From positions 1-61,159 of the forward strand of contig NZ_JAQYWB010000034.1 in assembly GCF_030145185.1 (NCBI RefSeq): DNA of 61,159 nucleotides. The letters run 5' to 3'. Of this stretch, positions 12,508-58,881 are shown one piece after another. Below the pieces are notes generated by a model. The model was not told where the DNA came from. It saw only the letters and a program-made list of their open reading frames with translations, and did no database searches. This DNA is from Desulfoluna sp. GTDB taxonomy: Bacteria; Desulfobacterota; Desulfobacteria; Desulfobacterales; Desulfolunaceae. The position numbers and the translations under genes were made by a program. How positions within the stretch are numbered: the stretch's first letter is position 1; each line of letters opens with the position of its first letter.

Positions 12508-14253
12508 ATGCTTTATTCAATTGAAGAGTCCATCAGGAAATTTGCCCATGTGATTGCCGTGGTCGTGGGCATGGACGTGGAAGTGGTGGGGGCGGACCTG
12601 AAACGAATCGCCGGAACAGGTCGGTATGCCGAAGGGGATGGCAAAAGCATCGAGGATGAAGGCGAGGTCTATCGGCACGCCTTGAAAACCGGGCGACCGG
12701 TGTGCATCGATAACCCGAAGAATGATCCGATCTGCTTCAACTGCAAGAATCGGGAAGGGTGCGAAGAGAAGCTCACCCTCTGCTCTCCGATTCTCCGTGA
12801 CGGCAAGGCCATCGGGATTATCGGTATCATCTGTTTTACCGAACAGGACAAACGTACCATCTTGAAGAACCGTAATAATTACGGGGCGTTCCTCTCTATG
12901 ATGGCGGACCTGATCGCCGCCAAAGCCGAGGATTATCACCATATCACAGAGACCACCCAGACCCTGGACGTCCTGAGGCAGGTGATGGACGTTCACGCCG
13001 GGGGCATGTTTGTCTTTGGGGCCGATGGGAGCGTGACTTACGCCAACGCCCACGCCAGAAAGGAGCTGGGTATCGAAGACCCCGGAGATACCGTCTCCGT
13101 ACAGCTGATCCCCACCGGCAACACCGTGGGGGATGCCGAAGAGTATGAACTCCATTTCGGGGAACAGCACCTGGTGATCATGGGGCAGATGGTGGACCTG
13201 AAAAAAGACGACCCCCGCTTCTCACGGGTGATGCTTTTTGAGACCCAGACCGACTTCACCCGGAAGGTGTCCAGTCTCACCTCCTCAGCCGGAGGGGAAG
13301 GTCTCGACGCCATCCTTGGAATGTCGCCTGCCATACGCAGGCTCAAAGAACAGGTCATGGCCATCACCACCTCCTCATCCACGGTTCTGATCAGTGGAAA
13401 AAGCGGCACGGGAAAAGAGCTGTTCGCCCGGGCCATCCATCATGAGGGCGATCGCCGGGAGCAGCCCTTTGTGGCCATCAACTGCGGGGCCATCCCCGAT
13501 ACCCTCCTGGAGAGCGAGCTCTTCGGCTACACCTCAGGCGCCTTTACCGGCGCAAACCCCGGGGGTCGCATCGGAAAATTCGAGCTGGCACATAAAGGGG
13601 TCCTCTTTCTCGATGAGATCAGCTCCATGCCTCTTTATCTCCAGGTGAAACTGCTGCGGGTGCTCCAGGAACGCAAGGTCGAACGCCTGGGTGCCAATAA
13701 ACCCATCGACGTCGACATCCGGGTGGTGGCCGCCACCAACGATGACCTGCCGGAACTCATCGCCAAGAATATGTTCCGCAGTGACCTTTATTACCGACTC
13801 AATGTCATTCCCCTGGAAATTCCCCCCCTATGCGAACGCATCGAAGACATTGACCTGCTCGCCGACCATTTTCTCGTCAAGTACAGCCGCCGCTTCAGCA
13901 AACGGTTTAAAAAAATTGAAGGGTCCACCATGGCCCGTCTTCGCAGCTATGCATGGCCCGGTAACGTCCGCGAGTTTGAAAACATCATTGAGTTTATGGT
14001 CAATATGATGCCCGCCGACGGCGTCATCAATGACGCCCTCCTGCCCTCCAGGATTCTTCAAAATCACGACAGCTGTGCCGCCCTCCCCACAGAGAACGCC
14101 GTCCTCCCCCTCAAAGAGGTGGAAAAGCGGGTTATCACAGAAGCCGTGGCCCGCTACGGCAACGATACCAAAGGAAAACGCACCGCCGCCACCGCCCTGG
14201 GGATCGGGGTGGCCACCCTGTATCGGAAAATTCGGGAGTATGGGATTGAGTAG
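12508..14253 (+). CDS. Sigma-54-dependent transcriptional activator (YgeV-like)
   Basis: 581 residues. Residues 1-130 form a GAF-like sensory domain with a cysteine cluster CFNCKNREGC (76-85) plus Cys66 and Cys92. A PAS-like segment follows (about 155-215, GGMFVFGADGSVTYANAHAR). The AAA+ domain runs from about 272 to 505 with Walker A GKSGTGKE, the sigma-54 contact loop GAFTGANPGG, Walker B VLFLDEIS, and RSDLYYRLNVIPLEIPPL. A Fis-type helix-turn-helix closes the protein (GKRTAATALGIGVATLYRKI). It is divergent from the ygeX operon and resembles YgeV by context. The cysteine cluster could bind a metal or Fe-S centre or act as a redox switch. The stop codon lies inside the first unit of a heptanucleotide repeat. 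Confidence 0.92.
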   Translation: MLYSIEESIRKFAHVIAVVVGMDVEVVGADLKRIAGTGRYAEGDGKSIEDEGEVYRHALKTGRPVCIDNPKNDPICFNCKNREGCEEKLTLCSPILRDGKAIGIIGIICFTEQDKRTILKNRNNYGAFLSMMADLIAAKAEDYHHITETTQTLDVLRQVMDVHAGGMFVFGADGSVTYANAHARKELGIEDPGDTVSVQLIPTGNTVGDAEEYELHFGEQHLVIMGQMVDLKKDDPRFSRVMLFETQTDFTRKVSSLTSSAGGEGLDAILGMSPAIRRLKEQVMAITTSSSTVLISGKSGTGKELFARAIHHEGDRREQPFVAINCGAIPDTLLESELFGYTSGAFTGANPGGRIGKFELAHKGVLFLDEISSMPLYLQVKLLRVLQERKVERLGANKPIDVDIRVVAATNDDLPELIAKNMFRSDLYYRLNVIPLEIPPLCERIEDIDLLADHFLVKYSRRFSKRFKKIEGSTMARLRSYAWPGNVREFENIIEFMVNMMPADGVINDALLPSRILQNHDSCAALPTENAVLPLKEVEKRVITEAVARYGNDTKGKRTAATALGIGVATLYRKIREYGIE

Positions 14254-14373
14254 CGAGTAGTGAGTGGTGAGTAGTGAGTAGGGAGTAGTGAGTAGTGAGT
14301 AGTGAGTAGTGAGTAGGGAGTAGGGAGTAGGGAGTAGGGAGTAGGGAGTAGGGAGTAGGGAGTAGGGAGTAGG
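14248..14373 (+). repeat. Heptanucleotide tandem repeat, 18 units of GAGTAGK
   Basis: Eighteen contiguous 7-base units run from 14248 to 14373. The first nine are mostly GAGTAGT with a few variants (GAGTAGC, GAGTGGT, GAGTAGG); the last nine are all GAGTAGG. The Glu codon and TAG stop of the upstream regulator gene form the first unit, so the array starts inside the coding sequence but cannot alter the protein. Confidence 0.95.
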
Positions 14374-14380
14374 GAAAAGA

Positions 14381-14418
14381 GCCTCCGGCGGCAAGGTGTG
14401 CACCTTTCCGCCGGAGGC
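14381..14418. terminator. Bidirectional GC-rich hairpin (family A head as a perfect palindrome)
   Basis: GCCTCCGGCGG plus CAAGGTG pairs with CACCTTTCCGCCGGAGGC, giving an 18-bp nearly perfect stem with a two-base loop, followed on the plus strand by ATCGATTTTTG. It lies between convergent genes (regulator ending 14253, peptidase ending 14454) and is well placed to end both transcripts. Confidence 0.65.
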
Positions 14419-14453
14419 ATCGATTTTTGTATCGTTTATTTTTGTGCTGGCCC

Positions 14454-15158
14454 TTATTTTTTTGTAGCGTTGCTCCGTGGTTTTTCAAAGTGCTGGTAAT
14501 CTTTATAAGAGGTCCAGTTCCCGCCCCAATCCCATCCAAGCCGCAGAAATGTTTTTACAATCGGGCTGTCCGCCGTCAGGGTTCCGGCAACCATTGGGTC
14601 ATAGGTTGATCCTGTGGGCAAAACCGTATCGCCTTTGATGTAAGGGTTCTGAAACGGATTGATATCAATGGCTCTCCCTTGTGCATGTTTGGACAGCCGG
14701 GTCGTGCTTCCTGTGATCATTCTGTAATTGAATGCCGATGTATTATTGGCCTCCATGGAAAGATCATCATCCCAGGAATTGTTTTTGCGAAAGTGCTTAT
14801 CGGAAATGGGAATCACCGAATAAATAACAAAATGCTCGTTGAGTGCCTGTTTGAATACCGTTTTGATATCTTCTTCCAGCTCGCCATCAACCACCACCTG
14901 GCCTTCATGAATGCGATTGTCATATGAGTAATATTTAACCTGCACAATTTTCTGCTTTTTGCGCAGCTCTTCCGGGCATTTTGGATTCAGACCATTAAAC
15001 GCTTCGTTTTCGGTCATCCTGGCATCGATGACGGAAACGTCCGGAGTCACCTGCTTGCTTTCAGCGTAGCTTGGGTTGCTGACAGCCAACAGCATAACGA
15101 ATAAAGGGAAAATATAGAACAAGCGACTGAATTTACTTGTGGTCGTAGTTTTGATCAT
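14454..15158 (-). CDS. M15-family D,D-carboxypeptidase-like protein, exported
   Basis: 234 residues. An N-terminal hydrophobic signal (about residues 10-32, ending SYA) is followed by a mature region with the M15/VanY zinc motifs SKHAQGRAIDI (His158, Asp165) and DYQHFE (His223). The tryptophan-rich segment LGWDWGGNW precedes the last zinc ligand, as in the peptidase_M15_4 subgroup. It probably cleaves the terminal D-Ala of peptidoglycan peptides in the periplasm. It appears monocistronic and is convergent with the sigma-54 regulator. Confidence 0.85.
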   Translation of the reverse strand: MIKTTTTSKFSRLFYIFPLFVMLLAVSNPSYAESKQVTPDVSVIDARMTENEAFNGLNPKCPEELRKKQKIVQVKYYSYDNRIHEGQVVVDGELEEDIKTVFKQALNEHFVIYSVIPISDKHFRKNNSWDDDLSMEANNTSAFNYRMITGSTTRLSKHAQGRAIDINPFQNPYIKGDTVLPTGSTYDPMVAGTLTADSPIVKTFLRLGWDWGGNWTSYKDYQHFEKPRSNATKK

Positions 15159-15328
15159 TTTAAAAAAGTTCCAATCTTTTCATCATTATATTTCCGGTTT
15201 ATGTATTGCGAATATTCTAAATGCTTTATGTTAAGTAAAGTTGCATAACGTAACATGGAATATACTTTTGAACAAGCGGTTACTATAATAAGGAAATATA
15301 CGAAAAGGGTGTGATCCCTCCTCTCTTT

Positions 15329-15526
15329 TCAGCGGTGAATGCGCTTCACCCGCCCTACGAGCCCGCTCTCCAAGCGCACTTTTATCCCATGGGGATGGGT
15401 GGCCGATTTTGTGAGAAGATCCCGGACGATCCCTTTGGTGAGGGTTCCGGTTCTCTGATCTTGTTTCAAGACGATGGAGACAGTCAGTCCCGCTTTGATA
15501 TCTGCCCGTTTCGTGCCCTCATCCAT
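15329..15526 (-). CDS. ywbE: YwbE-family small protein
   Basis: 65 residues, MDEGTKRADIKAGLTVSIVL..., matching the small conserved YwbE family (COG4895), a KOW-like beta-rich protein: LTKGIVRDLLTKSATHPHGI followed by VRLESGLVGRVKRI. The start ATG at 15526 is set by a strong AGGAGG sequence on the minus strand; a longer reading frame upstream has no ribosome-binding site. Function is unknown; an RNA-binding role has been suggested only by fold. Confidence 0.85.
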   Translation of the reverse strand: MDEGTKRADIKAGLTVSIVLKQDQRTGTLTKGIVRDLLTKSATHPHGIKVRLESGLVGRVKRIHR

Positions 15527-15952
15527 GATAAAAACCTCCTGATGACTCTTTTTTGTTGGTTCCCCGGTCAGGAAACCAGCGTGGAATACACCCGTATCTT
15601 TCGGGGTGTTTTTTTGTACCGGAGGCCAGGCCAAGGCGGGCCTCCAGAAGCATCTCGTCATAAATCAACGGTGGGATATGACAAAAAAAGATAGCATATA
15701 TTCATCGTTATTTTAAGCCCTGGAAAGCCCCTTCGCCCCCGAGACAAGGCTTCATCATCCTCTCCTGGATTCTCTCTCGCAGTGTTTTCGGTATTAGCAT
15801 AATCAATGGTTAATAAAGAAAGTATCAATATATAGTATTGGAATATTCACGATCAGCCGGATATGAAGAGACGAAATTTTACTGACACTTTTTTCAATGT
15901 GAACCGTCACACACCATGATAACCAACCATTTCAGGGGTTAAAATACTTACA
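15527..15952. other. Divergent intergenic region, no gene
   Basis: It contains the ywbE leader, with a short hairpin ACACCC...GGGGTGT followed by seven T on the plus strand (about 15589-15613). Then comes an AT-rich stretch before the binding-protein gene at 15953. I see no riboswitch or conserved gene here. Confidence 0.4.
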
Positions 15953-17014
15953 ATGAAGAGACTACTTATTTCTTTAGCCTTACTCTCCCTCATGGGAAGC
16001 CTCCTCTGCACAGGGTGCAGCGCACCGTCAAAGCCCACCGAAGGCGCGGTCCAAAGCACCCAAATGAATATCGGCTACCTGGCCTCACCCGAACACCTCC
16101 TCTATTTTGTGGCCAAAGAGAAGGGCTTTTTTGAAGAGGAGGGCATCGATGCCAAACTGTACCAGTTTACAAACTCTGCCGAAGGGTTAAACGCCACCCT
16201 CTCCGGCAAACTCGACGTGGGGAGCTTCGGCGTCTCTGCTCCCCTGGCTTTTACGGCAAAGGGAGCGGATATCGTCGTCATTGGCGGGCAGAACTCCGGG
16301 GCCTGCGCCCTAGTCTGTAACCCTGGCCGGTATGAGGAGCTGAAGGATATACGCAACTACGCAGGGAAAAAGATCGCCAGTGTTCGTCTCTCCACCGCCG
16401 ATGTTATCTTTCGGGGGGCGCTTATTGATGCGGGCATCGACTGGCGAAAGGGAGAGGCCCAGATTATCGAGATGGAATCGCCGGCGTCTACCATGGAGGC
16501 CCTGAAGAAGGGCCGTGTGGATGCGGCGCTGATCTGGTCCCCCTATGTGGCCATGGCCGAGGACCAGGGGGTGAAAATCGCCATGCACATCACCGATCTT
16601 TTTGACAACAATGTCTGCTGCCGCCAGGCCGTCATGGGCTCTGAGCTGAAAGAAAACCCTGAGCGCTGGCGCCATTTCATGGCCGCCCTCATCAAAGCCT
16701 ACGATTTTTATCAGACCCACCATGAGGAGACCATCGACATCACCGAAAAATATGTGAAAGTCGACAAGAAATACTTGAGAAAAGAGACCTATGCCGATGA
16801 CGCGACCATGATCTGCAGTCCGGATCCTTTGAAAAAGTCCACCCAGCGGTACTGGAATATTATGAAGGATACCGGCTTCATCCATTCAGATATCGCCATC
16901 AAGGATCACATCGATACTTCCATCTACAAGGCCGCCCTGGCCCGGCTCCTCCAAGAGAATCCGGACAATGAGAGCTACAAAAAACTCACGGCGGAATTTG
17001 CCCTCAACAACTAA
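15953..17014 (+). CDS. ABC transporter substrate-binding lipoprotein (NMT1/SsuA/TauA-like)
   Basis: 353 residues. A lipoprotein signal with lipobox LCTGC (Cys22) is followed by a type II periplasmic binding fold: NIGYLASPEHLLYFVAKEKG then FFEEEGID, LSGKLDVGSFGVSAPLAFTA, and the ESPASTMEALKKGRVDAALI segment characteristic of the nitrate/taurine/sulfonate/thiamine-precursor family. It has an unusual CC pair in NNVCCRQAV. The ATPase and permease genes follow at 17541 and 18345, and corrinoid methyltransferase genes after them. The ligand is therefore likely a methylated small molecule or sulfonate (inference). Confidence 0.88.
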   Translation: MKRLLISLALLSLMGSLLCTGCSAPSKPTEGAVQSTQMNIGYLASPEHLLYFVAKEKGFFEEEGIDAKLYQFTNSAEGLNATLSGKLDVGSFGVSAPLAFTAKGADIVVIGGQNSGACALVCNPGRYEELKDIRNYAGKKIASVRLSTADVIFRGALIDAGIDWRKGEAQIIEMESPASTMEALKKGRVDAALIWSPYVAMAEDQGVKIAMHITDLFDNNVCCRQAVMGSELKENPERWRHFMAALIKAYDFYQTHHEETIDITEKYVKVDKKYLRKETYADDATMICSPDPLKKSTQRYWNIMKDTGFIHSDIAIKDHIDTSIYKAALARLLQENPDNESYKKLTAEFALNN

Positions 17015-17058
17015 GCCTTTTTTAGGTTGCGGGAAGAAATAAAAGCACAAACAGCAAT

Positions 17059-17470
17059 GCCTCCGGCGGCAAGGTGAGCCACCTTGAAAGCAGGTTTGCG
17101 AATGCTCTATCCCGGATATTTCACGAGTCGAGTGCACCCATATTCAAGGCATCAGAGCTGCAGATGTAGTGGTTTACCTCAAAGCTCTGATAATGCAGAA
17201 GATGGGTGCACTCGGCTCGCCCGAAGAGTGAGAAAAGCGAGTAGAATACGGTGAATTGCATTTTTGAAATGCCTGTAGCTTACCTTGGTAACGTGCCGTA
17301 ATAATGTATTATTGTTTTGGTATGGTCGTTTTCTCATGAAATATCCGGGCTAAGGCCGTCTGTAATCCGGGCACCCCGCGTCCGCATTCGCGTGAAGGGT
17401 GAGGGGGTGCCTTATACGCCGCAAATGCATGAGCTTCCGGTGCTTCCGTGTCAATTCACAGGTTGGCATG
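17059..17470 (+). repeat. Family A repeat (A2) split by an M element
   Basis: It starts GCCTCCGGCGGCAAGGTGAG at 17059 and follows A1 (561-727) as far as GCGAATGCTCTA. A 239-bp family M element (17111-17349) follows. The A sequence then resumes at CTAAGGCC and runs through CGCATTCGCGTGAAGGGTGA to the CCGGTGCTTCCGTGTCAATT tail at about 17470. The interruption shows that M moved after A was in place. Confidence 0.8.
17111..17349 (+). mobile_element. M element copy 1 (MITE-like, long form)
   Basis: 239 bp with inverted ends CCCGGATATTTCACGAG and CTCATGAAATATCCGGG, flanked by TA on both sides (CTAT left, CTAA right). Inside is a large imperfect hairpin: GTGCACCCAT pairs with ATGGGTGCAC, and GCATCAGAGCT with AGCTCTGATAATGC. 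It has no coding capacity. Other copies are at 29159, 41708, 52875 and 61016. TA-flanked non-autonomous elements are typical of IS630/mariner-type mobilisation (inference). Confidence 0.75.
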
Positions 17471-17540
17471 AACCGGAACAACTCAGGCGGCCAGGGGAGC
17501 CACCCTCCTCTGGCTTTCTGGAGAGAAAAGGGAAAAACAG

Positions 17541-18332
17541 ATGGAAAAGATCCGACTGGACAATGTCTCCTTTGCCTATTCGCAGCAAAAATCGATGATC
17601 CCGGTGATTAGCGGAGTCGATCTTTCTGTGGCGGCAGGGGAGTTTGTCACCATTATCGGCCCCAGCGGCTGCGGGAAGAGCACCATCCTCAGCCTTTTGT
17701 CCGGGCTGAACAGTCCCTCTGAAGGGGATATTCTCATCGATGGAGAGGCGATCCGGGGGACCGGTACCGAGCGCGGGGTCGTTTTTCAGCACTACTCTCT
17801 TTTTCCCTGGATGAGTGCCCGCAAAAACATCATTTTTGGTCTCCGGCAGTTAAAGCCGCGCCGATCCCATAAAGAGCTGGCCGAGATCACAGACCGCTAC
17901 CTCTCCCTGGTGGGCTTGGACGATGTAGGGGATAAGTATCCCAACCAGTTGTCTGGTGGGATGCAGCAGAGGGTGGCCATTGCCCGGGCCTTTGCCATGG
18001 ACTCGGACATTCTTCTGATGGACGAGCCTTTCAGCGCCGTGGATGCCAAAAACAAAATGGGGCTCCAGGGCTTGCTCCTCGATTTATGGAACAGCGGTCC
18101 CCGGAAAAAGACCGTGGTATTCATTACCCATGATGTGGATGAAGCCATCCTCTTATCAGACCGAATCGTTGTCATGTCGGCCTGCACCAAGGGAATCAAA
18201 GAGATCATTCGGGTTAATTTTAATCGCCCCCGAAACCGATCCGCCCTTATTAAAACACCCGAGTATGCGGCGATGCGTCATATGCTGATCAATTTACTCT
18301 TCGACGATCTCATCGAAGAGGTGGCCGTTTAG
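17541..18332 (+). CDS. ABC transporter ATP-binding protein (SsuB/TauB-like)
   Basis: 263 residues. Walker A is GPSGCGKST, the Q-loop region is VVFQHYSLFPWMSARKN, the signature is LSGGMQQRVAIARAFA, Walker B is ILLMDEPFSAVDA, and the H-loop is VVFITHDVDEAILLSDR. No C-terminal regulatory domain follows, as is usual for nitrate/sulfonate/taurine-type importers. It is separated from its binding-protein gene by 526 bases of repeats and is 12 bases upstream of the permease gene. Confidence 0.92.
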   Translation: MEKIRLDNVSFAYSQQKSMIPVISGVDLSVAAGEFVTIIGPSGCGKSTILSLLSGLNSPSEGDILIDGEAIRGTGTERGVVFQHYSLFPWMSARKNIIFGLRQLKPRRSHKELAEITDRYLSLVGLDDVGDKYPNQLSGGMQQRVAIARAFAMDSDILLMDEPFSAVDAKNKMGLQGLLLDLWNSGPRKKTVVFITHDVDEAILLSDRIVVMSACTKGIKEIIRVNFNRPRNRSALIKTPEYAAMRHMLINLLFDDLIEEVAV

Positions 18333-18344
18333 GAGAAAAGACCC

Positions 18345-19325
18345 ATGAATACTTTATGCCGGGCCGAAAAGGCCACCGACACTCCCCAAAAAGGGTTCCA
18401 CACCATCGCTCTCCGGCTGCCGCTCCGTCTGGCAGATATCCTTTTTATCTCAGCCATGGTTTTGGCCGCCCTGCCGGGTAAAAGGACCATGGCCTTTGAG
18501 TACCGAGGTTACCTCATGGGCCTTCTCGGTCTCATTGAACTCCTCTACTGGCTTCACCAAACCATGCACAAAGAGCCCGTAAGGAAAAAATCCTCCGGAG
18601 ATATCGCGGCCGTTATGTTTACAGGCATCATCGTCTGGGAACTCATGACGAGTCACCTGGATCTCCTTCAGCATCTTCTTTTTCCGGTGCCGGGCAAGGT
18701 GGTGGCCGTCTTTATAAGCGAGCTCCCCGTCTTTGCCCGCTGCCTGGTAAGTTCACTGGGGCTCCTCGGGGCCGGATACCTCCTGGCCCTGATCACGGCC
18801 ATCCCCCTGGCCCTGATCATCGGATGGCGCAAACGCCTCTTTGCCGCCGTTAACCCCTTGACCAAGGTGCTGGGACCCATTCCGCCCATTGTCTATATCC
18901 CCTACGCCATCGTCATCTTGCCCACCTTTAAATGTGCCTCTATTTTTATTATCTTCATTGGGGCCTTCTGGCCCATCTTTATCGGCACACTCAACGCCAC
19001 CTTCAATGTGGACAGGCACCTCATCGACTCGGCCCGGGTTCTCAATGTTTCGGAGAAAACCATGCTCTTTGAGATCATCCTCCCCGGCATCATGCCCGCC
19101 ATCATCAGCGGGGCCACCCTGGGCCTGGTCTTCTCATTTATCCTCTTAACCGCCGCCGAGATGATCGGCGCCTCCTCGGGGCTGGGATGGTACGTCAAAT
19201 ACTTCTCCGATTTTGCCGATTACCCCCGGGTTGTGGCGGGTATTCTCTTCATCGGGTGTGTGGTCACAGCCATTACCGGATGCTTCGAAAGGGTCGAACG
19301 CCGCCTTTTGAGCTGGAAAAATTAG
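18345..19325 (+). CDS. ABC transporter permease (SsuC/TauC-like)
   Basis: 326 residues with at least six membrane spans. The N-terminal third adds two spans and a loop not usual in short SsuC proteins. The core holds the coupling-loop region LIDSARVLNVSEKTMLFEII then LPGIMPAIISGATLG, and a final GWYVKYFSDFADYPRVVAGI segment typical of this permease group. It completes the importer begun at 15953. Confidence 0.9.
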   Translation: MNTLCRAEKATDTPQKGFHTIALRLPLRLADILFISAMVLAALPGKRTMAFEYRGYLMGLLGLIELLYWLHQTMHKEPVRKKSSGDIAAVMFTGIIVWELMTSHLDLLQHLLFPVPGKVVAVFISELPVFARCLVSSLGLLGAGYLLALITAIPLALIIGWRKRLFAAVNPLTKVLGPIPPIVYIPYAIVILPTFKCASIFIIFIGAFWPIFIGTLNATFNVDRHLIDSARVLNVSEKTMLFEIILPGIMPAIISGATLGLVFSFILLTAAEMIGASSGLGWYVKYFSDFADYPRVVAGILFIGCVVTAITGCFERVERRLLSWKN

Positions 19326-19337
19326 AGAAAAAGCGAT

Positions 19338-19938
19338 GCCTCCGGCGGCAAGGTGAGCCACCTTGAAAGCGGGTTGCCGCAGCGCTTTAACCCTCGTTCC
19401 TCGGGTCAAATCACAGCGGCATCTTTCATGAAAATTGTGCATTTATTTTTTGCGTGAGCCTTTAATGATAAAGGGTCGCCATTTCTTTGTAACTGTTCAG
19501 CGATGCCTCCGGCATGGGGAGTTTCCTGGATAAAAAATACATGATTGCCACTTATTCCCATCCCTCATTAGGAAGGTTGGGAAGGGGTGCCAATCAAGAC
19601 CAATAATGGTGTTTAAACACACGATTTGTCGTGGCATAAGCCGGTTGGCATGGAGCGCCGCACTCCTGTGCGGCACGAACGATGACGCATCCACAAAAAA
19701 AGCCGCACCGGAGTGCGGCGCTCCAGAGCCGGTTGGCTCAGCCATGGTCGCGAATTAACTTCGTGGTGAATCACATATGGCTGAAAAAGAATGGTAATCA
19801 GAAAAAAATAAGACCTGTTTATCAAACCCAGCCCATAAAAATTGGCAAAAGTTTGGCTCCCGGCAGGGCCGCCGGAGGCATTTTTCTTACCATAAGATCC
19901 CAGCTGGGGTTTTAATCATATCGATAAGGGGAAAACGC
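19338..19938. repeat. Intergenic repeats before the corrinoid gene; no gene
   Basis: A family A head lies 12 bases after the permease stop (19338-19372), with the CTCGTTCCTCGGGTCAAATC tail variant also seen in reverse near 26757-26790. At 19640-19739 two copies of a GGAGCGCCGCACTCC.GTGCGGC palindrome face each other and could form one long hairpin. A reverse family B copy lies at 19813-19879. No gene is credible here; the ribosome-binding site AAGGGG of the next gene is at its end. Confidence 0.65.
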
Positions 19939-20595
19939 GTGATGGAGTCACAAGAGAGTTTGCTCAAAGAGTTGTCGAACCATGTGGTGGACATGGCCGA
20001 GGAAGAGGCTGTGGAGACGGCAAAGCGCTACATCGACGGGGGTTTCGATGCCTACGAGGGCATTGACCAGGGGCTGGCAGTCGGCATGGAGAGGGCAGGG
20101 CAGCTCTACGAGGAGGAGGAGTATTATATCCCTGAGCTGCTGATGTGTTCCGATGCCATGTATGCCGGCATGGATATTTTAACCCCCCATTTAAAGGCAG
20201 ATGAGAGCAAGGACCGGCACAAGGTGGTCATGGGTGTGGTGGAGGGGGACACCCACGACATCGGTAAGAACCTGGTCAAGATCATGCTTGAGACCGCCGG
20301 CTTTGAGGTGGTGGACCTGGGACGGGACGTCCCCCCGGAGGACTTTGTCAGCAAAGCCATGGAGATCGGCGCTGAGATCATCGGCCTGTCGACGTTGATG
20401 ACCACAACCATGGAGAACATGGAGCGCGTGGTGCAGCTCCTTGCGGAAAAAGGTCAGTCGCAGATTCGGGTGATGGTGGGCGGTGGCCCCATCTCCTCGG
20501 GATTTGCCCGGAAAATTGGGGCTCATTACTCTCGAAATGCTTCTCGGGCCGTGGAGCTGGCCAAGAGCCTGGTCGGGGAGGTCATCCCATGCTAA
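19939..20595 (+). CDS. Corrinoid (B12-binding) protein, MtaC/MttC-like
   Basis: 218 residues. A helical B12-cap domain (1-90) precedes a Rossmann-like B12-binding domain with the signature VEGDTHDIGKNLV (lower Co ligand His106), the second motif GLSTLMTTTMENM and the third VGGGPISSGFA. It carries the methyl group between a substrate:corrinoid and a corrinoid:acceptor methyltransferase. The start is GTG at 19939 (an ATG is the next codon), preceded by AAGGGG. The downstream UroD-type gene begins inside its last codons (seven-base overlap), so the two are translationally coupled. Confidence 0.95.
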   Translation: MMESQESLLKELSNHVVDMAEEEAVETAKRYIDGGFDAYEGIDQGLAVGMERAGQLYEEEEYYIPELLMCSDAMYAGMDILTPHLKADESKDRHKVVMGVVEGDTHDIGKNLVKIMLETAGFEVVDLGRDVPPEDFVSKAMEIGAEIIGLSTLMTTTMENMERVVQLLAEKGQSQIRVMVGGGPISSGFARKIGAHYSRNASRAVELAKSLVGEVIPC

Positions 20596-21731
20596 CCGAT
20601 CAGATGACCCCCATGGAACGGGGCAAGGCCCTGGCCAAGGGCGAAAGCGTCGACCGCCTCCCCTGCAATCCCAACGTCGCCAACGGCGTGGCCCGTATCT
20701 ACGGGTGCAAAATCTCGGAGTTCAACACCAGCGCCAAGGCCATTGCCAATGCCCAGATCGCCTCCTATCGCCGCTTTGGATACGATGGCGTTCGGGTCTT
20801 CACCGATCTCTTCCCCTGGGCCGAGGCCATGGGAGCGACGGTGAGTTTCCCCGATGACAACACGGCCGACCTGGCAGAGCCCGCCGTCAAGGAGATCTCC
20901 GAGATTTATAACCTGGAGCCGGCAGATCCGTACAAAGATGGCCGCCTGCCTGTCCATATCGATGCGATGAAATACCTTGTTGACGAGCTTGGTGATGAGG
21001 TGGGATGTGCCGGAGGCCTTGTGGGGCCTTTCTCCAACGCCTTCTTCCTCTTCGGTATCGAGACCTTTACCAAACTTATCTTTAAAAACCCGGAGGCGGT
21101 GCACAGGGCCTGTGAAGTTTCCCTTGAGACCTGCATCCGATACGCCCAGGCCATCATCGACCAGGGGCTGACCCCCACCATCTCCGAACCTCTCTCCTCG
21201 TGCACCGTGGTGAGCCCCAAGCATTTCCGGGAGTTCGGAGCCCCTTACATCAAAAGGCTCGTGGCGTATATCAACACCCATGGCAAGCCTGTTACCATGC
21301 ATATCTGCGGAAAAACAGACAAAATCTGGGAAGACATCGTCGATATGGGGGTTGCCGGATTCAGCGTCGATAATGTCGTCAATCTGAAACAGTGCAAGGA
21401 GCAGATCGGGGATCGCGTGAAGATTCTCGGCCACGTGGACCCGTCGGCCATTATCTATGCCGGCCCCCCCGCCGAAGTCCGCCGGGCCGTGGCCGACTGC
21501 GTGCAGCAGGCCTGGGACAGCCCCAAGGGGTATGTCATCATGTCCGGTTGCAGCCTGCCCGTGGAGACCCCTTCTGCGCACATCGATGCCATGATGAATG
21601 CGGCACGGGAGATCGGCTATCCCGTGGTACCTGAAAAGCTGGATCGCATGATTGCAGAGACCCCTGAGGCCTCCACCCAGCCGGAGATCATCACCCCAAC
21701 CGCCTCAGGGATATGCACATGCCCACATTGA
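20589..21731 (+). CDS. UroD-fold cobalamin-dependent methyltransferase 1
   Basis: 380 residues of the uroporphyrinogen decarboxylase-like superfamily used by MtaA, CmuA and related corrinoid methyltransferases. The zinc site is visible as His238-x-Cys240 in VTMHICGKTDK and Cys321 in IMSGCSLPVETP. It ends in an unusual Cys-containing tail GICTCPH. It is translationally coupled to the corrinoid gene. Because no MtaB- or MttB-type partner is present, this more divergent paralogue may be the substrate-side methyltransferase (inference); the other two resemble MtaA more closely. Confidence 0.88.
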   Translation: MLTDQMTPMERGKALAKGESVDRLPCNPNVANGVARIYGCKISEFNTSAKAIANAQIASYRRFGYDGVRVFTDLFPWAEAMGATVSFPDDNTADLAEPAVKEISEIYNLEPADPYKDGRLPVHIDAMKYLVDELGDEVGCAGGLVGPFSNAFFLFGIETFTKLIFKNPEAVHRACEVSLETCIRYAQAIIDQGLTPTISEPLSSCTVVSPKHFREFGAPYIKRLVAYINTHGKPVTMHICGKTDKIWEDIVDMGVAGFSVDNVVNLKQCKEQIGDRVKILGHVDPSAIIYAGPPAEVRRAVADCVQQAWDSPKGYVIMSGCSLPVETPSAHIDAMMNAAREIGYPVVPEKLDRMIAETPEASTQPEIITPTASGICTCPH

Positions 21732-22795
21732 TACCCACAAAGGAGAGGCTGACTCCCAAGGATAGGCTGACCCTGGCCCTGCAGGGAAAAACCGTGGATC
21801 GTCCGCCCTGTATCTGCCCCGGCGGCATGATGAATATGATCGTGGAATCGGTCATGGACAGGACAAAGAGTCCATGGCCCGAGGCCCACAGCGATTCTCG
21901 GCTCATGGCCGATCTGGCGGCGGGCATGTACGAAGGGGGAGGTTTTGAAAATTACGGGGTCCCTTTTTGCATGACCGTGGAGGCCGAAAGCATGGGGGCA
22001 CCGGTCTCCATGGGGTCACGCACCCATGAACCCCGGGTGACGGATTACCCCATAGACGCAGTCTCCCGGTGGATAGAACTAAGGGATATCGATGTAACAA
22101 CGGGCCGGGCAAAGGTGGTGATCGAGGCGATCCGGCACTTAGGGAAAAAGAACCCGGAGGTCCCCATCATCGCCAACCTCACCGGCCCCATCAGCCTGGC
22201 CACCTCCCTGATCGAACCGGTGCTCTTCTTCAAGGCGCTGCACAAAAAGCCCGAAGAGGCCCATGAACTCCTGGAGCATGTCACAAAAAATCTCATCGCC
22301 TTTGGCAAGGCCCAGCTGGAGGCAGGGGCCCAACTCCTCACTATCTCCGATCCCAGTGGTACCGGAGAGATCCTGGGACCCAGGATGTTCGCACGGTTTG
22401 CGCTTCCCTATCTCAACGCCATCGTCCGGGAGCTCAATGATTTCGCCAAGGCAGGCACTATCATCCATATCTGCGGACGGCTGAAAGGCATCTACCAGGA
22501 GCTGAATCTCCTGGGCTGCGATGCCCTCAGCTTCGACGCCATCACAGATGTCCGGCAGGTGGCAGAACATGTCACCGGCAAGGTCCTCATGGGCAATGTC
22601 AGCACCTTTGCCTTAGAGAACAGCGGCCCCGAAAAGATCACCGCCCTCTGTAAAAGTTGCCTCGCCCATGGGGTCGATATCCTGTCCCCGGCGTGCGGCA
22701 TCGGCCCCCGCACCCCCTTTGAAAACATCCAGGCCATGGTCAACGCGGCAAAAAAGGGAGAGAAGAAAGAAGGGGCAAACAAAGAAGGGACGTAA
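21713..22795 (+). CDS. UroD-fold methyltransferase 2 (MtaA-like)
   Basis: 360 residues. MtaA-type hallmarks are LTPKDRLTLALQGKTVDRPP at the N terminus, ENYGVPFCMTVEAESMGAPV, ISDPSGTGEILGP, and a zinc site His252-x-Cys254 (IHICGR) with Cys328 (SPACGIGP). It is probably the methyl-corrinoid:acceptor methyltransferase of this island; whether the acceptor is tetrahydrofolate, CoM or another thiol cannot be read from the sequence. Its start lies 19 bases inside the previous gene. An internal ATG at 21719 is an alternative. Confidence 0.88.
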   Translation: MHMPTLIPTKERLTPKDRLTLALQGKTVDRPPCICPGGMMNMIVESVMDRTKSPWPEAHSDSRLMADLAAGMYEGGGFENYGVPFCMTVEAESMGAPVSMGSRTHEPRVTDYPIDAVSRWIELRDIDVTTGRAKVVIEAIRHLGKKNPEVPIIANLTGPISLATSLIEPVLFFKALHKKPEEAHELLEHVTKNLIAFGKAQLEAGAQLLTISDPSGTGEILGPRMFARFALPYLNAIVRELNDFAKAGTIIHICGRLKGIYQELNLLGCDALSFDAITDVRQVAEHVTGKVLMGNVSTFALENSGPEKITALCKSCLAHGVDILSPACGIGPRTPFENIQAMVNAAKKGEKKEGANKEGT

Positions 22796-22808
22796 CGGTT
22801 TAGTTTAT

Positions 22809-22882
22809 GCCTCCGGCGGCCCTGCCGGGGGCTAAACTTTTGCCTGATTTTATAAAGGCGGGTTTAACAAACAGGTTTTAAA
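22809..22882 (+). repeat. Family B repeat
   Basis: It begins GCCTCCGGCGGCCCTGCCGG 13 bases after the methyltransferase stop and continues with an AT-rich tail including TTTAACAAACAGGTTTTAAA. Other copies are at 53245-53318, 54693-54757, and in reverse at 59884-59957, 39658-39715 and 19813-19879, with remnants at 26680-26709 and 29370-29401. Members are generally near gene 3' ends. Confidence 0.75.
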
Positions 22883-23024
22883 TATGTATTTCGTATTTAC
22901 GTCGCCGGAGGCTTTTTTTGAGCTGAATAGTCACAAAGGGAAAAACAGGGGTCGTCTCTCTTAACGATCGATTCAGAAGTGCCCCCCCCTCGCGTTTTCT
23001 AGGGGGAAGCCCCTTCTGCTCTCT

Positions 23025-23512
23025 CGTTCCCAGGCTCCGCCTGGGAATGCTCCCCGGAGGCTCTGCCTCCATGTTTGAAACCCAGCAACCTGTAAGTTTC
23101 CCCCTGCGTTACGGCTTTCCGTACCGGCAAGGCGGAGCCTTGCACCCGACACTCCCAGGCGGAGCCTGGGAATGCTCCCCGGAGGCTCTGCCTCCATGTT
23201 TGAAGCCCAGCAACCTGTGAGTTTCCCCCCTGTGTTACGGCTTTCCGTACCGGCAAGGCGGAGCCTTGCACCCGATACTCCCAGGCAGAGCCTGGGAGTG
23301 AGAAAAATAATAATACAATGGGCGGCTAAAATACCGATGGGCTTTGACCCGAGGAATCCGCCTACACCCATGTCTAAGCGTCATCATTTGACGCACGTCA
23401 GTGGGCTACGGCGCGACAAGCGATCCGTCTTCGCCTGCGGCTACGCCGTGACATGGGGGCAAAGCCCAGCGGTAACCTGCTTTCAAGGTGGCACACCTTG
23501 CCGCCGGAGGCT
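23025..23512. repeat. Tandem family C repeat (2 x 125 bp) and reverse family A copy
   Basis: Two nearly identical 125-base units start at 23043 and 23168, each with CCTCCATGTTTGAA, CCCAGCAACCTGT, and palindromes of the CCAGGCGGAGCCTGG type; the array ends near 23301. A reverse family A element follows and ends GCCGCCGGAGGC at 23512, just before the activator gene. No gene was found between 22796 and 23549. Confidence 0.75.
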
Positions 23513-23549
23513 TTTTTTTTAAGCTGAATAGTTACGAAGGAAAAAACAG

Positions 23550-25397
23550 ATGTCACATCTTTTAACGATCGATTCAGAAACGCCCCCCCTGGCGTTTTCC
23601 AAGGGGAAGACCCTCCTTGAAATCCTTCAGGACCATGGCCGGGCTCCGGAGAGCCCCTGTGCCGGTAAGGGGACCTGCGGCAAGTGCCGGGTGAAGATTC
23701 TCGCCGGAGAGCTCTCTTCCCCCACCGAGGAGGAGACGGCGCACCTGACCCGGGAGGAGCTCGGCCAGGGGCTTCGGTTAAGCTGCCAGGTGATCCCGTC
23801 CGGGGATGTCCACCTGTCGCTGATGGCGGAGAAGAGCCAGGTTCACGAGATTTTAACCGACGGGGAGATGCCGGAGATCTCCGTGGCGCCCTGGATGGCC
23901 AAGCGGGTGATCCCCCTTACCCCGGACGCCTTAAAAAGCGGGCTCTCCCATGAGGCTCTGATTGAAAAGGCCTTAAACGCCCCCTTGGCCCCCGGCGAGC
24001 CTTCCCTGCTGGCGAGTCTGGCCATGAGTCTTCCAGCCGAACAGGTCACCGCCATCTGTGCGGGAGATCGCCCCGTGGGGATAGAGCCCGGCGATACCCG
24101 TGATCAGATGTACGGTATCGCCGTGGATATCGGCACCACCACCGTGGTGGCCGCCCTCATCGACCTGAACTCGGGACGGGAACTGGGCTGTGAGTCGGCG
24201 ATCTCTCCCCAGAAAGAGTACGGTCTCGATGTCTTGTCCCGGATCGATTTTGTTCGGCGGGAAGAGAGGGGACTCCGCACCCTGCAGGAGGCCATGGTCA
24301 CCTGTTTGAATGAGCTTGCCTTCACCCTTGCTCGCCATGCACGTATCTCCATAGAGCAGATCTACGAGATGAGCGTGGCGGCCAACGCCACGATGATGCA
24401 CCTGCTCCTGGGCGTTGACACCCACTCCATCGGTCGGGCACCCTTTGCCACCGTCTTTTCCAGGAGCCAGTCCCTTCCGGCCACCGCCATTGGGTTGCGA
24501 CTCGCCCCCTTTGCACGGCTCTACTGCCTGCCAGGGGTCTCCAGCTATATTGGTGCCGATATCGTTGCCGGGGTGGGGGTCTCCCGACTCGCACAAGGGA
24601 AGAAAAATCGCCTCCTCATCGACATGGGCACCAATTGTGAGCTGGTCCTGGCCAAGGCCGGCACCCTGACCTCCTGCTCCTGTGCCGCCGGTCCGGCCCT
24701 GGAGGGGATGAACATCAGCTGTGGCATGCGGGCCGCCGAAGGGGCTATTCAGGACGTGACGATCCAGGACGGCGCCATCACTTTGGACGTCATCGGCGGG
24801 AAAGCCCCCACAGGCATCTGTGGCAGCGGTATTCTATCCGCCATTTCCGAGATATCCCGCGTCGGCCTCATGGCAAAGACCGGGCGCTTAAAGAAGGGGG
24901 CCGATCTTGGGTTTGATGCGGCCTCCCTGGCCCCCTTTCTGATAGAGGCAGAGGGCAAAAGAGCGGTCACCCTCTCGTCCGGCCCCCAGAAAATCATCAT
25001 CACCCAGGACGATATCCGCCAGGTGCAGCTGGCCAAAGGCGCTATTCTCTCGGGCATCCATGCCCTCCTGGAGTCCATGGAGATCCCCATGGAGGCCCTC
25101 GATGAGGTGATTATCGCCGGTCAGTTTGGTGCCCACCTCAGCGTGGAGAGTCTCATGGGCATAGGCATTCTGCCCCGGAGCCTGGCTGGAAAGATACGCT
25201 ATATCGGTAACGCTTCAAAAACAGGGGCACGGATGTGCCTGCTCTCTAAGGAAGTCCGCACGGAGATGGAAGAGATCGCCACAGACGTCCACTACCTCGA
25301 ACTGGCCACAAAAAAAGGGTACGAGCGGCTCTTCACCCGGTGCCTGAGTTTCAGCGAAACCCTGGAGGCCCCCCGGCCGAGGAGCAGATGCGCATGA
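23550..25397 (+). CDS. RACo-like corrinoid activation protein (2Fe-2S + ASKHA domain)
   Basis: 615 residues. An N-terminal plant-type [2Fe-2S] ferredoxin domain carries Cys37-x5-Cys43-x2-Cys46 and Cys79. A linker (about 90-185) and a large ASKHA-fold ATPase domain follow, with the phosphate loops AVDIGTTTVVAALIDLNSG, LLIDMGTNCELVLA and GICGSGILSAISEI. This is the architecture of reductive activators of corrinoid proteins, which use ATP to reduce inactive Co(II) to Co(I). Its place in the methyltransferase island supports re-activation of the corrinoid protein at 19939. The next gene overlaps its stop by four bases (ATGA). Confidence 0.93.
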   Translation: MSHLLTIDSETPPLAFSKGKTLLEILQDHGRAPESPCAGKGTCGKCRVKILAGELSSPTEEETAHLTREELGQGLRLSCQVIPSGDVHLSLMAEKSQVHEILTDGEMPEISVAPWMAKRVIPLTPDALKSGLSHEALIEKALNAPLAPGEPSLLASLAMSLPAEQVTAICAGDRPVGIEPGDTRDQMYGIAVDIGTTTVVAALIDLNSGRELGCESAISPQKEYGLDVLSRIDFVRREERGLRTLQEAMVTCLNELAFTLARHARISIEQIYEMSVAANATMMHLLLGVDTHSIGRAPFATVFSRSQSLPATAIGLRLAPFARLYCLPGVSSYIGADIVAGVGVSRLAQGKKNRLLIDMGTNCELVLAKAGTLTSCSCAAGPALEGMNISCGMRAAEGAIQDVTIQDGAITLDVIGGKAPTGICGSGILSAISEISRVGLMAKTGRLKKGADLGFDAASLAPFLIEAEGKRAVTLSSGPQKIIITQDDIRQVQLAKGAILSGIHALLESMEIPMEALDEVIIAGQFGAHLSVESLMGIGILPRSLAGKIRYIGNASKTGARMCLLSKEVRTEMEEIATDVHYLELATKKGYERLFTRCLSFSETLEAPRPRSRCA

Positions 25398-26272
25398 ACC
25401 CAGGACCCGAATTCAGATGCACCCACCCCGGCACCGAAGAGATCCCCGAAGCGCTTATCGATGAGCTGGGATTCAAAGTCCCAGAAATTCACACCGACAC
25501 CCGGGAGATGGCACGCCTGGCCCTCGCCCTGAAAAAAGATCGCGGCGACGGCCTCTGCCGCCTCCCCTTCTGCATGACCGTGGAGGCCGAAGCCATGGGG
25601 GCCCAGATCACCCTCGGCAACAAGAGAAACGGCCCCCGGGTGGCGGGTTATTGCCTTCCGGATATCGATGCCGCCATGGGGATACAGAGGATCGACCTCT
25701 CCCAGGGAAGAGCGTTGGCGGTTCTGGATTGCGTAGCCGATCTAAGCACCCAGGGTGAGGCCGTGGGGCTAAATATCCACGGCCCCTTTACCCTGGCCTC
25801 ATCCCTTATCGACCCCCGGCACCTCTACAAGGGGATGAGACAAAAAAGCGAGGCCGTGGATCATCTCATGCGGGTGATCGAGGCCAGCATCGTGGCCTAC
25901 GCCCTGGAAGGGATAAAAAGGGGGGCTCAGCTCCTCTCCTACGCCGATCCCGCCGGAGCCATGGATCTCATCGGCCCCAAGCTCTACAAGGAGGTTAGCG
26001 GAAAAATCACCGCCCGGATCTTACAAAAAATAGAGGCGTCTAATGAAAATACCCTCCTGCACCTCTGCGGTAAGACCTCCACGGCCCTGGAAAAATGCGG
26101 TCTAAGCAGCTCCGAGCCCGTCCCATACGACCCGGAGCTCACCTACGGAGAAGCACTTACGGCGTTTTTAAAGCAGCAGCCCGGGGTCAGTATTGTGGGC
26201 CACAGCTGCATGAAACAAACGCCAAAGCACAATCGGCACCCAAGGTTGTGGGCGATCCATCTCGGCTCATAA
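25394..26272 (+). CDS. UroD-fold methyltransferase 3 (short MtaA-like)
   Basis: 292 residues. The ATG at 25394 is preferred over 25388 because GAGGAG lies about ten bases upstream and the ATG forms an ATGA overlap with the activator stop. It shares LPFCMTVEAEAMGA with methyltransferase 2 and keeps the zinc site His223-x-Cys225 (LHLCGKTS) and Cys272 (GHSCMKQ). It lacks the first roughly 30 residues of the N-terminal MtaA helix region, and its C terminus is short and basic (TPKHNRHPRLWAIHLGS). It may be a specialised or decaying copy. Confidence 0.82.
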   Translation: MNPGPEFRCTHPGTEEIPEALIDELGFKVPEIHTDTREMARLALALKKDRGDGLCRLPFCMTVEAEAMGAQITLGNKRNGPRVAGYCLPDIDAAMGIQRIDLSQGRALAVLDCVADLSTQGEAVGLNIHGPFTLASSLIDPRHLYKGMRQKSEAVDHLMRVIEASIVAYALEGIKRGAQLLSYADPAGAMDLIGPKLYKEVSGKITARILQKIEASNENTLLHLCGKTSTALEKCGLSSSEPVPYDPELTYGEALTAFLKQQPGVSIVGHSCMKQTPKHNRHPRLWAIHLGS

Positions 26273-26274
26273 AA

Positions 26275-26709
26275 AAAGCCTCCGGCGGCAAGGTGGGGGC
26301 ACCTTGAAACCCTATAGCGAATGCGTGGAGATTGTCGTGATGCCCTTGTTTTCTGGGCATTCGCGCCAAGGGTGATACTCGGCAACCGGCACTGCTGAAG
26401 ACGCCGATATCATGATTCCGAAAAACAGGGTGAGGGGCCTCCTGGCGAAAAACGCTTAGCCCCCAGCTAAAAAAGCCGCGACGGAGCACGGCGCGCCCAG
26501 GAGGGTGTCGTCTCTCCGCTCGTTGTCAAAGCCATGGCCGTGTTCCCCTTCGGTGGGGGCCATCTTTCTTCAATCTCTCAACAGCGCTGTTTTTCGGGCG
26601 CGCCGTGCTCCGTCGCGGCATTTACGCGATATCGATGGAAGGGAGTCGCTCGTTGGGATGTGATAACGGATGCGAGATAAGTTTAGCTACCGGCAGGGCC
26701 GCCGAAGGC
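26275..26709. repeat. Family A variant, family D element and family B remnant; no gene
   Basis: A family A variant (about 26275-26445) starts three bases after the methyltransferase stop. It shares its whole length, including GGGCATTCGCGCCAAGGGTG, with 58515-58680. A reverse family D element (26464-26681) follows. Its 24-bp terminal inverted repeats (26475-26498 and 26596-26619) read GCCGCGACGGAGCACGGC and onward. A family B remnant (26680-26709) ends the block. Confidence 0.75.
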
Positions 26710-26886
26710 ATAATTTTCACAGAGAAATGCATGCGGTTTCTCAAAAGGCCGCTGTGATTTGACCACGAGGAACGAGGGGGCAAAGCGCAGCGCAAACCCG
26801 CTTTCAAGGTGGCTCACCTTGCCGCCGGAGGCTTGCTTTTTGCTTTTTGCGTATTCCTAACGAACGACCCAGGAGAGATCAGCAGT

Positions 26887-27744
26887 ATGAAATGGGAAGA
26901 ACTTCGGAGGCGTCTCCTTCCGTGGGGCGTATTGGCCCTTGTGTTGATGGCTGTAAGAGGGGTGGCGTCCCATGGCATCCATGACCCCCTGATGCAGGAC
27001 AAGGTTCCTCTGCTCTATTTGACCCTCATCTTTTTGGGGGGATTGATCATCATCGGCGGGGTCAAGGGGATAAAATCCATCTTCACACTGATCTTCACCA
27101 TCTGGGTTATCCTGAAGGTTCTCCTTCCCCTTATTCTGAAAGGGTACAACCCGGTTTGGGTCACCATGGCCCTTTGTGCCCTGGTGATTGCCGTCACCTT
27201 AAGTGTCATCGGCGGGGTTAATCGAAAAACCCTGGCAGCCACCATCGGAACCTTCGGCGGGGTCACCATCGCCGGGCTTTCGGCCCTTATTATTGGTCAT
27301 ATGGCCCAGCTTACCGGCCTTGGGAACGAAGAATCCATCCACCTCATTCTCTACTCCCGTCACATCGATTTCAGGGGGCTTCTCTTGGCAGGCATTATCA
27401 TCGGCGCTTTAGGGGCTGTGATGGATGTGGGCATCTCCATTGCTTCTGCCATGCATGAGATCCGAGTTGCAGATCCCGGGATCGGGGAAAAAGAGTGGAT
27501 CGCAGCCGGCATGAAGGTGGGCCGTGATATCATGGGCACCATGTCCAATACCTTAATTCTTGCCTATGCAGGCAGCAGCCTGAACCTCCTGCTCCTTTTA
27601 ACGACCTACGATCTTCCTTTGAATGAAATCATCGGACGAGACACCCTGGCCGCAGAGGTCCTGCGAGCCCTGGCCGGCAGCGTGGGGCTTCTCTTTACCA
27701 TCCCGGCCACCGCCATCGCCGCGGGGAAACTTGAAAAGGGTTGA
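26887..27744 (+). CDS. YibE/F-like membrane protein, lacking the usual N-terminal domain
   Basis: 285 residues with about eight membrane spans. Conserved YibE/F segments include YLTLIFLGGLIIIGGVKGIK, SRHIDFRGLLLAGIIIGALG, then AVMDVGISIASAMHEI, and MGTMSNTLILAYAGSSLNLL. The start ATG at 26887 is supported by AGGAGAG upstream. Family members often carry an extracytoplasmic N-terminal domain before the first conserved helix; it is missing here, and family A/B repeats lie directly upstream. Function is unknown. Confidence 0.8.
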   Translation: MKWEELRRRLLPWGVLALVLMAVRGVASHGIHDPLMQDKVPLLYLTLIFLGGLIIIGGVKGIKSIFTLIFTIWVILKVLLPLILKGYNPVWVTMALCALVIAVTLSVIGGVNRKTLAATIGTFGGVTIAGLSALIIGHMAQLTGLGNEESIHLILYSRHIDFRGLLLAGIIIGALGAVMDVGISIASAMHEIRVADPGIGEKEWIAAGMKVGRDIMGTMSNTLILAYAGSSLNLLLLLTTYDLPLNEIIGRDTLAAEVLRALAGSVGLLFTIPATAIAAGKLEKG

Positions 27745-56471: not shown

Positions 56472-56507
56472 AACTGCCTTCTATGGTTAAAGAACGGGAA
56501 AAACAGC

Positions 56508-57735: not shown

Positions 57736-57736
57736 A

Positions 57737-58480: not shown

Positions 58481-58514
58481 GGGTGATCTCTTAATAAATA
58501 AAAAGAAAAAAAAG

Positions 58515-58680: not shown

Positions 58681-58881
58681 CCGATCAACTTGCTGTTTAC
58701 CGGTATCACGCCCGCGGCCTGGAAATTTTTTACCAAGGGGGCTTCACCATCTATAGACCCCAGGTGGGCCTCCGCCTCGCTGGGGCTCACCGTGTCCTAA
58801 TGTATAGGAGCGCGGTGAGTTGTCAGTGACTTCGTGTATCACAATCGCATCGAACCTGGGGTACAGGGGATTTATCCCCTG

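Follow-up and report, generated by a model that had tools for sequence, protein, structure and literature searches.

Type 1 mlp gene clusters (MGCs), described by Kountz and Balskus in 2023, have been proposed to serve methyl-selenide/methyl-sulfur metabolism, with their UroD proteins themselves as the (de)methylating enzymes (PMC10418091). Recombinant Mlp2 of C. ljungdahlii (ClMlp2) uses methylcobalamin to methylate selenide, the reaction with sulfide being 4.3-fold slower, and Mlp2 of M. voltae (sdmC) is reported as required for dimethylselenide use (PMC10418091). Here we compare these systems with an island of eight plus-strand genes at positions 15953-26272 of a 61,159-nucleotide stretch of Desulfoluna sp. 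DNA (hereafter the window), which is one contig (C89, NZ_JAQYWB010000034.1) of a 5.8 Mb genome assembled in 152 contigs. The island is probably a type 1 MGC of the selenium type, which would carry out corrinoid-dependent methyl salvage from methylated selenium, perhaps sulfur, compounds. Its core is already known; its importer is a new, unexplored component.

A first-pass annotation, made from the sequence alone, had placed on one strand an importer, a corrinoid protein with His106, three UroD proteins and a RACo-like activator. Family scans bear this inventory out, with every gene on the plus strand, and its reading as a corrinoid methyl-transfer set that is complete in itself and includes an importer stands. 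The same annotation saw an island without a known substrate methyltransferase. We dropped the idea of an unknown methyltransferase island given the match to the MGCs of PMC10418091: the locus belongs to a published cluster family in which the UroD proteins are the proposed enzymes. The island now has a testable assignment in place of "no known substrate enzyme".

Comparison with type 1 mlp gene clusters

The methyl-transfer core begins with an MtbC/MtgC/MtaC-type corrinoid protein (19939-20595; PF02310, B12-binding, and PF02607, B12-binding_2), which carries the motif D-T-H106-D-I-G, counted from its GTG start, and scores 191.4 bits against TIGR02370 (cut-off 215.3). Next come UroD1 (20589-21731; PF01208), a methyltransferase assigned by trees to the Mlp2 lineage; UroD2 (21713-22795; NF004889, 436.8 bits, cut-off 244), an MtaA-like methyltransferase corresponding to Mlp3; a RACo/Ram-type corrinoid reductive activase with an N-terminal 2Fe-2S domain (23550-25397; PF14574, PF17651, PF00111); and UroD3 (25388-26272), a shortened UroD-fold protein corresponding to Mlp1. 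A 7-nt overlap between the corrinoid gene and UroD1 shows that the tight coupling of these two genes, as claimed in the first-pass annotation, is real; UroD1 and UroD2 overlap as well, as do the activase gene and UroD3. The widest gap between the corrinoid gene and UroD3 is 754 bp (22796-23549), and the antisense open frames within it were not taken as genes. For UroD3, the ATG at 25388 (294 aa) is a likelier start than the GTG at 25340 of the first stage, because the orthologue in a genome of the same genus (L086) begins there.

MGCs are defined by gene direction and spacing, by the lack of a nearby folate methylase, by zinc ligands and by Mlp content. In the window, the genes run in one direction with no divergent gene between them and with gaps of ≤2 kb. 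No folate methylase lies within 20 kb: Pterin_bind (PF00809) has no match on the contig, which extends from the corrinoid gene for 19.9 kb upstream and ∼35 kb downstream, and it has matches on other contigs. The zinc ligands are His-Cys-Cys, a rule from which several Mlp1 proteins are excepted. An Mlp3 is present, and UroD1, from the sister group of ClMlp2, may count as an Mlp2 in the sense of PMC10418091. The reference cluster of C. ljungdahlii (L204, taken by gene order) reads Mlp1, Mlp2, corrinoid protein, Mlp3 and Ram, to which the window proteins UroD3, UroD1, corrinoid protein, UroD2 and RACo are 34%, 32%, 56%, 50% and 47% identical, respectively. The window thus resembles a type 1 MGC in having a corrinoid protein, a Ram/RACo activase, Mlp1, an Mlp2-lineage protein and Mlp3 on one strand, in a contig devoid of folate methylase and with a selenium-type context in its relatives. 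It differs in gene order, in the sister-group placement of UroD1, and in its SsuA/NMT1-type importer and YibE/F protein. The SdmABC system of Methanococcus voltae/maripaludis, compared here by its published description, likewise pairs a corrinoid protein with UroD-type methyltransferases for methyl-selenides; PMC10418091 and passages of PMC11097638 name no importer as part of it.

The zinc sites can be read directly. UroD1 has H238, C240 and C321, and UroD2 has H252, C254 and C328. His-Cys-Cys is kept in 113/113 Mlp2-type rows and in 61 of 62 Mlp3 rows, the remaining row being unreadable at the site. UroD3 itself has H-x-C and C; in its Mlp1 family both cysteines are kept in 25/25 rows and the histidine in 16/25. 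Three H-x-C...C sites, as annotated in the first pass, are therefore present, although to treat them as equal would overstate the case for UroD3.

UroD1 parts from MtaA in the trees. All trees in this work, except the binding-protein tree used for a topology test below, came from quick searches. In a tree of 118 proteins (without proteins >430 aa and two rows on long branches, and with the close UroD1 rows thinned by about two thirds and the Mlp3 rows by half), UroD2 falls in the clade of the C. ljungdahlii MGC Mlp3 (Clj_MGC_Mlp3; support 90) and UroD3 with the Mlp1 of that cluster (100). The group of UroD1 (29 rows; 99) has as its sister the 15-row group of ClMlp2 (94), the joint set of 44 rows having a support of 90. 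A branch with a Shimodaira-Hasegawa-like approximate likelihood ratio (SH-aLRT) support of 100 separates MtaA (4ay7), UroD2 and UroD3 from UroD1 and CmuA. The first-pass annotation had named placement of all three UroD proteins in the MtaA clade as the outcome that would count against it; in this tree, which includes MtaA and CmuA, UroD1 does not take that placement, and of the three it remains the likeliest to be the substrate-side enzyme proposed there. A tree of 201 rows, again without proteins >430 aa, returns the same Mlp1 and Mlp3 clades and places MtaA with them.

The likeness of UroD2 and UroD3 to MtaA extends to the zinc-site motifs, which align with those of 4ay7 in a profile alignment, and the AlphaFold2 model of UroD3 (predicted local distance difference test score, pLDDT, 91.8) has MtaA 4ay7 as its best structural match (TMq 0.66). 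UroD2 scores below the cut-off of the MtaA equivalog model NF040654 (257.6 of 400 bits), and coenzyme M is not assumed as its acceptor because the cluster sits in a bacterial host (Desulfobacteraceae group). In CmuA (strain CM4) a UroD domain is fused to a corrinoid domain, whereas the window encodes UroD1 and its corrinoid protein in two genes.

The selenium-type assignment comes from relatives of the cluster. Eight aligned UroD1-like proteins were used to scan genome contigs, and the best 80 of 263 loci were analyzed; since many of these also have short flanks, the neighbor counts are lower bounds. We place more trust in these counts than in p values for the importer neighborhood, because the fetched loci are related to one another. 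In the UroD1 tree, the window falls with 41 loci (support 99), apart from the other 39. Mlp1 occurs in 22/41 loci on the window side versus 0/39, and double-cubane reductase/activator genes in 13/41 versus 0/39; conversely, nitrogenase-like (MarH/MarD-type) genes occur in 0/41 versus 20/39, and CysK/MetC-like genes in 1/41 versus 20/39. Neighbor families were confirmed on representatives, and the reading of the nitrogenase-like genes as MarHDK follows PMC10418091, the NCBIfam models for nitrogenase proper not being passed. This UroD1 split matches the selenium and non-selenium groups of PMC10418091. UroD2 splits as UroD1 does (support 80), with the window in the selenium-type group. The genome of the window itself encodes selB and selD above cut-off, the latter with one in-frame TGA, and has a single partial match to a nitrogenase component.

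Several UroD-type genes elsewhere drew our attention in passing. The Mlp3 gene of Clostridium muellerianum (L109) has an apparent selenocysteine (Sec) codon in its zinc site, which we read as decay and not as genuine, the gene having an internal deletion. A UroD-family gene of C. ljungdahlii (L200) has one in-frame TGA (CPA-TGA-GIS) outside the zinc site, possibly selenocysteine or an error. Outside its mlp cluster, the same species has at L206 (6202-10674) a corrinoid gene and a 63% UroD1 relative, whose neighbors are another UroD1-like gene and a double-cubane gene in divergent orientation. In Sporomusa-type loci (L139, L142, L143), the mlp cluster has next to it another corrinoid/UroD/nitrogenase-like set, divergent and encoded on the other strand.

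The cysteine-pair importer

The importer comprises a substrate-binding lipoprotein of the NMT1/SsuA type (15953-17014; Pfam NMT1_2/NMT1, the lipobox being read from the sequence), an ATP-binding cassette (ABC) transporter ATPase (17541-18332; PF00005) and an ABC transporter permease (18345-19325; PF00528, with its lineage taken from a tree), all on the plus strand. A full importer lies within 8 kb of UroD1 on the same strand in 39/80 loci, and in 23/45 of the loci with ≥8 kb on both sides. The AlphaFold2 model of the binding protein (pLDDT 92.8) has SsuA (2x26) as its top Foldseek match (TMq 0.70), and its score against TIGR01728 (SsuA_fam), 155.9 bits, is just below the cut-off of 163.5. The binding protein thus has the fold of SsuA/TauA and a related sequence. 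SsuA 2x26, however, is free of cysteine across the aligned stretch in which the window protein has Cys-Cys-Arg (CCR; residues 222-224, nt 16616-16624).

All 29 binding proteins of an alignment that we chose to span the selenium and sulfur types share Cys222-Cys223-Arg224. A recount with a binding-protein profile over 86 cluster loci gave 72 segments, of which 9 do not reach the motif position; among the 63 that cover it, 54 have CCR, 2 have CCL and 7 have other residues (L095, L153, L156, L158, L163, L169 and L171). Within 8 kb of UroD1 and on its strand, the 80 loci yield 57 segments, with CCR in 48 of the 53 that cover the place (the exceptions are L153, L158, L163, L169 and L171). Control NMT1-family proteins were obtained from related genomes by querying 30 loci, which gave 24 proteins and, after the window's own and its sister's were dropped, 22; a CC pair occurs in one of these (CCV, G013). 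In the model, CCR ends a loop (213-223) and begins a strand (224-228), at the hinge. A profile alignment sets the fungal THI5 motif CCCFC at the CCR position, and text from PMC10512395 describes CCCFC as an iron-binding motif needed for activity. Because of the model position and this alignment, we infer that CCR probably lies in the ligand cleft. The RNA fold of the CCR coding stretch is nothing unusual (z 1.25), and plasmid searches with two binding proteins returned only matches of <60% identity.

The Sao importers (SaoX and SaoB; Haft and Gwadz) are alike in having thiol/selenol motifs and a proposed soft-element ligand, according to parts of PMC13188914. The same parts give SaoB and SaoX as Sec-containing, whereas none of 104 segments from the window's importer family has a TGA at its motif; selenoprotein versions of the importer at this position were rejected on that count. 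The Sao models all score below cut-off against the window importer (SaoX, 62.7 of 300; SaoA, 233.2 of 360; SaoP, 80.6 of 295; no SaoB match is listed). For the ATPase, the top NCBIfam models are ntrCD and SaoA, neither reaching its cut-off.

The importer did not travel with the core. The binding proteins of 16 selenium-type loci form one clade, and those of the window, its closest relative (L099) and Peptoclostridium litorale (L102) sit among sulfur-type proteins. The approximately unbiased (AU) test rejects a single clade of all 19 binding proteins from selenium-type loci (p-AU 0.000125); this test used 53 of 61 binding proteins, with one over-long and seven long-branched or partial sequences removed, and the group was chosen once a first tree had been seen. 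The permease tree has the same split. These phylogenies show different histories for the importer and the methyl-transfer core of the window, which by its sequences joins a selenium-type core with an importer of the sulfur lineage.

A CCR importer also occurs on a replicon of Treponema saccharophilum (L242, NZ_AP025290.1 325000-362000) between nitrogenase-like genes (NifH/NifDK-like), in a region that has MetY, CysK and radical SAM genes as well and is likely an anaerobic sulfur-salvage region. The corrinoid, UroD and activase proteins of the cluster have no match in these 37 kb, which ties the importer family to sulfur/selenium supply and not to corrinoid chemistry as such. We tentatively suggest, as a possibility less likely than not, that the CCR importer is dedicated to organic selenium/sulfur uptake in anaerobes, is common to both mlp types and this corrinoid-free Treponema region, catches its ligand with the vicinal cysteines in the cleft and, in the window, feeds corrinoid demethylation. 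In that case it would also be the first importer to be linked with the supply of organoselenium. According to passages of PMC11097638, no organism is known to have a dedicated selenium transporter, and in M. maripaludis none of five candidate transporters that were deleted proved necessary for any selenium species tested. The main text of PMC10418091 uses the word "transporter" once, in "methionine transporters", and a search of open-licence literature listed no paper whose title or abstract opening concerned the CCR importer. With its cysteine pair and its recurrent link to methyl-selenium/sulfur clusters, the CCR importer is a concrete candidate, testable with one purified protein.

One of the importers that lack CCR belongs to the mlp cluster of Acetoanaerobium noterae (L095, NZ_CP154629.1), which also has a CobW-like GTPase and two Mlp2-like genes; the 2.63 Mb record is labeled a plasmid and is probably a chromosome.

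Predicted pathway and alternative substrates

From the observed gene content, homology, zinc-site conservation, clade membership, selenium genes and CCR motif, we propose a scheme whose activities and ligand are predictions. The importer would take up a small compound of selenium/sulfur, methylated or otherwise organic, and hold it close to the CC pair of the binding-protein cleft. The activase, as is known for its family, would bring the corrinoid protein to the reduced Co(I) state. UroD1, binding the chalcogen through its His-Cys-Cys zinc, would then move the methyl group onto that protein, freeing selenide/sulfide or a selenol/thiol, by analogy with its sister enzyme ClMlp2. The MtaA-like UroD2 may pass the methyl group to a thiol acceptor, which we propose because the contig has no folate methylase. 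In the weakest step, UroD3 might handle a second methylated compound or pass on the freed chalcogen.

Some points weigh against this selenium-type assignment. UroD1 is just 32% identical to the assayed ClMlp2 and belongs to its sister group rather than to the same group; the published selenide activity of ClMlp2 is slow, and was assayed in reverse, starting from free methylcobalamin (PMC10418091). The activase tree splits selenium and sulfur loci less cleanly, and the double-cubane pair of the window lies ∼29 kb off on the other strand. Dimethylselenide is volatile and should need no importer, a point with which passages of PMC11097638 agree and leave its uptake open. The sulfur lineage of the importer could mean a sulfur ligand.

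This last point leads to a sulfur version of the scheme: a methylated organosulfur compound would enter through the importer, and its demethylation by UroD1, yielding a thiol or sulfide, would serve to supply sulfur or carbon. Such a reading gains from an importer lineage that is common to the clusters with nitrogenase-like (20/39) and CysK/MetC-like (20/39) neighbors, and from the corrinoid-free Treponema region with its MetY, CysK and nitrogenase-like genes. We judge it unlikely all the same, since UroD1 and UroD2 both fall in the selenium-type clade and the genome has only the one partial nitrogenase-component match; moreover, if the host is a sulfate reducer, as its kinship suggests, sulfide would be plentiful. 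Among the substrate candidates of the first-pass annotation, thio compounds are favored, with seleno compounds likelier still here; methylated amines are disfavored by the His-Cys-Cys sites and the selenium/sulfur neighbors in relatives.

Sets of corrinoid protein, activase and UroD proteins elsewhere carry out catabolic demethylation, as in the O-demethylases. Ordinary catabolism that takes the methyl group of an O-methyl aromatic, a methylamine or a sulfonate to tetrahydrofolate would also suit the importer fold, which is nearest to sulfonate-binding SsuA, and the MttB-family and Pterin_bind proteins on other contigs of the genome. It is nevertheless very unlikely here: the His-Cys-Cys zinc sites contrast with the carboxylate-containing O-demethylase sites in PMC10418091, the contig has no folate methylase, and the neighbors in relatives are selenium/sulfur genes. 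The absence of MttB noted in the first pass holds for the window's contig and not for the genome, which has three MttB-family genes, all on other contigs; with no MttB-family match on the contig, a methylamine/betaine system in the island was dropped. MtaB, MtmB and MtbB are absent among the scanned window proteins, a scan that covered part of the open frames and was not extended genome-wide, and MtrH (PF02007) has no match anywhere in the genome. Genome-wide, there are eight UroD matches, three of them in the window, and eight B12-binding_2 domains, which together with the MttB-family proteins indicate further corrinoid systems.

Vicinal cysteines are good binders of arsenic and mercury ions. 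A CC pair that binds a methylated arsenic or mercury compound, to be demethylated by the zinc/corrinoid enzymes, is the least probable reading: a related idea appears in parts of PMC13188914 for the Sec-containing SaoB/SaoX importers, but no arsenic or mercury family occurs among the window proteins scanned, the SaoX score is far under its cut-off, and the CysK, MetC/MetY and nitrogenase-like neighbors of the importer family point to sulfur/selenium.

Neighboring genes and related genomes

In the named collection, the closest relative is the Desulfobacteraceae bacterium isolate GLD-1 (L099), with a UroD1 that is 89% identical. A genome of the same genus (G004) has the same gene set at 80-93% identity, spread over two contigs. 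A YibE/F-like membrane protein (26887-27744, plus strand; PF07907, its start set by orthologue comparison) is encoded beside the cluster in the window and in L086 (G004), L100 and L106, where it follows UroD3, and in L102, where it follows UroD1. Across the 100 loci searched, matches of 56-91% occur in L086, L100, L102 and L106, and the sole further match is one of 32% on another contig of the window's own genome (L092). The YibE/F-like protein is a partner within the window's sub-lineage.

On the minus strand, a double-cubane-cluster reductase (DCCP; 55314-56471; NF040772, 455.6 bits, cut-off 350) and the activator ATPase of the double-cubane reductase (59970-60710; TIGR00241, 217.2 bits, cut-off 125.4) bracket a separate sugar-type ABC importer (Peripla_BP_4, ATPase, BPD_transp_2). 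The pair may be linked to the mlp cluster. The whole set, 55314-60710, is possibly a second small-molecule reduction system.

The regulator gene upstream (12508-14253) was considered as a cluster member and rejected, its matches in the 100 loci being ≤44%, with none in the window's sub-lineage. A 7-bp repeat array (GGGAGTA/TGAGTAG) lies at its end (14233-14386). A GC-rich interspersed repeat with the core GCCTCCGGCGGCAAGGTG occurs in both orientations in several gaps of the island (14375-26844). The start and leader of the activase gene are duplicated at 77% identity (22913-23012 and 23514-23613), with tandem repeat units between the copies.

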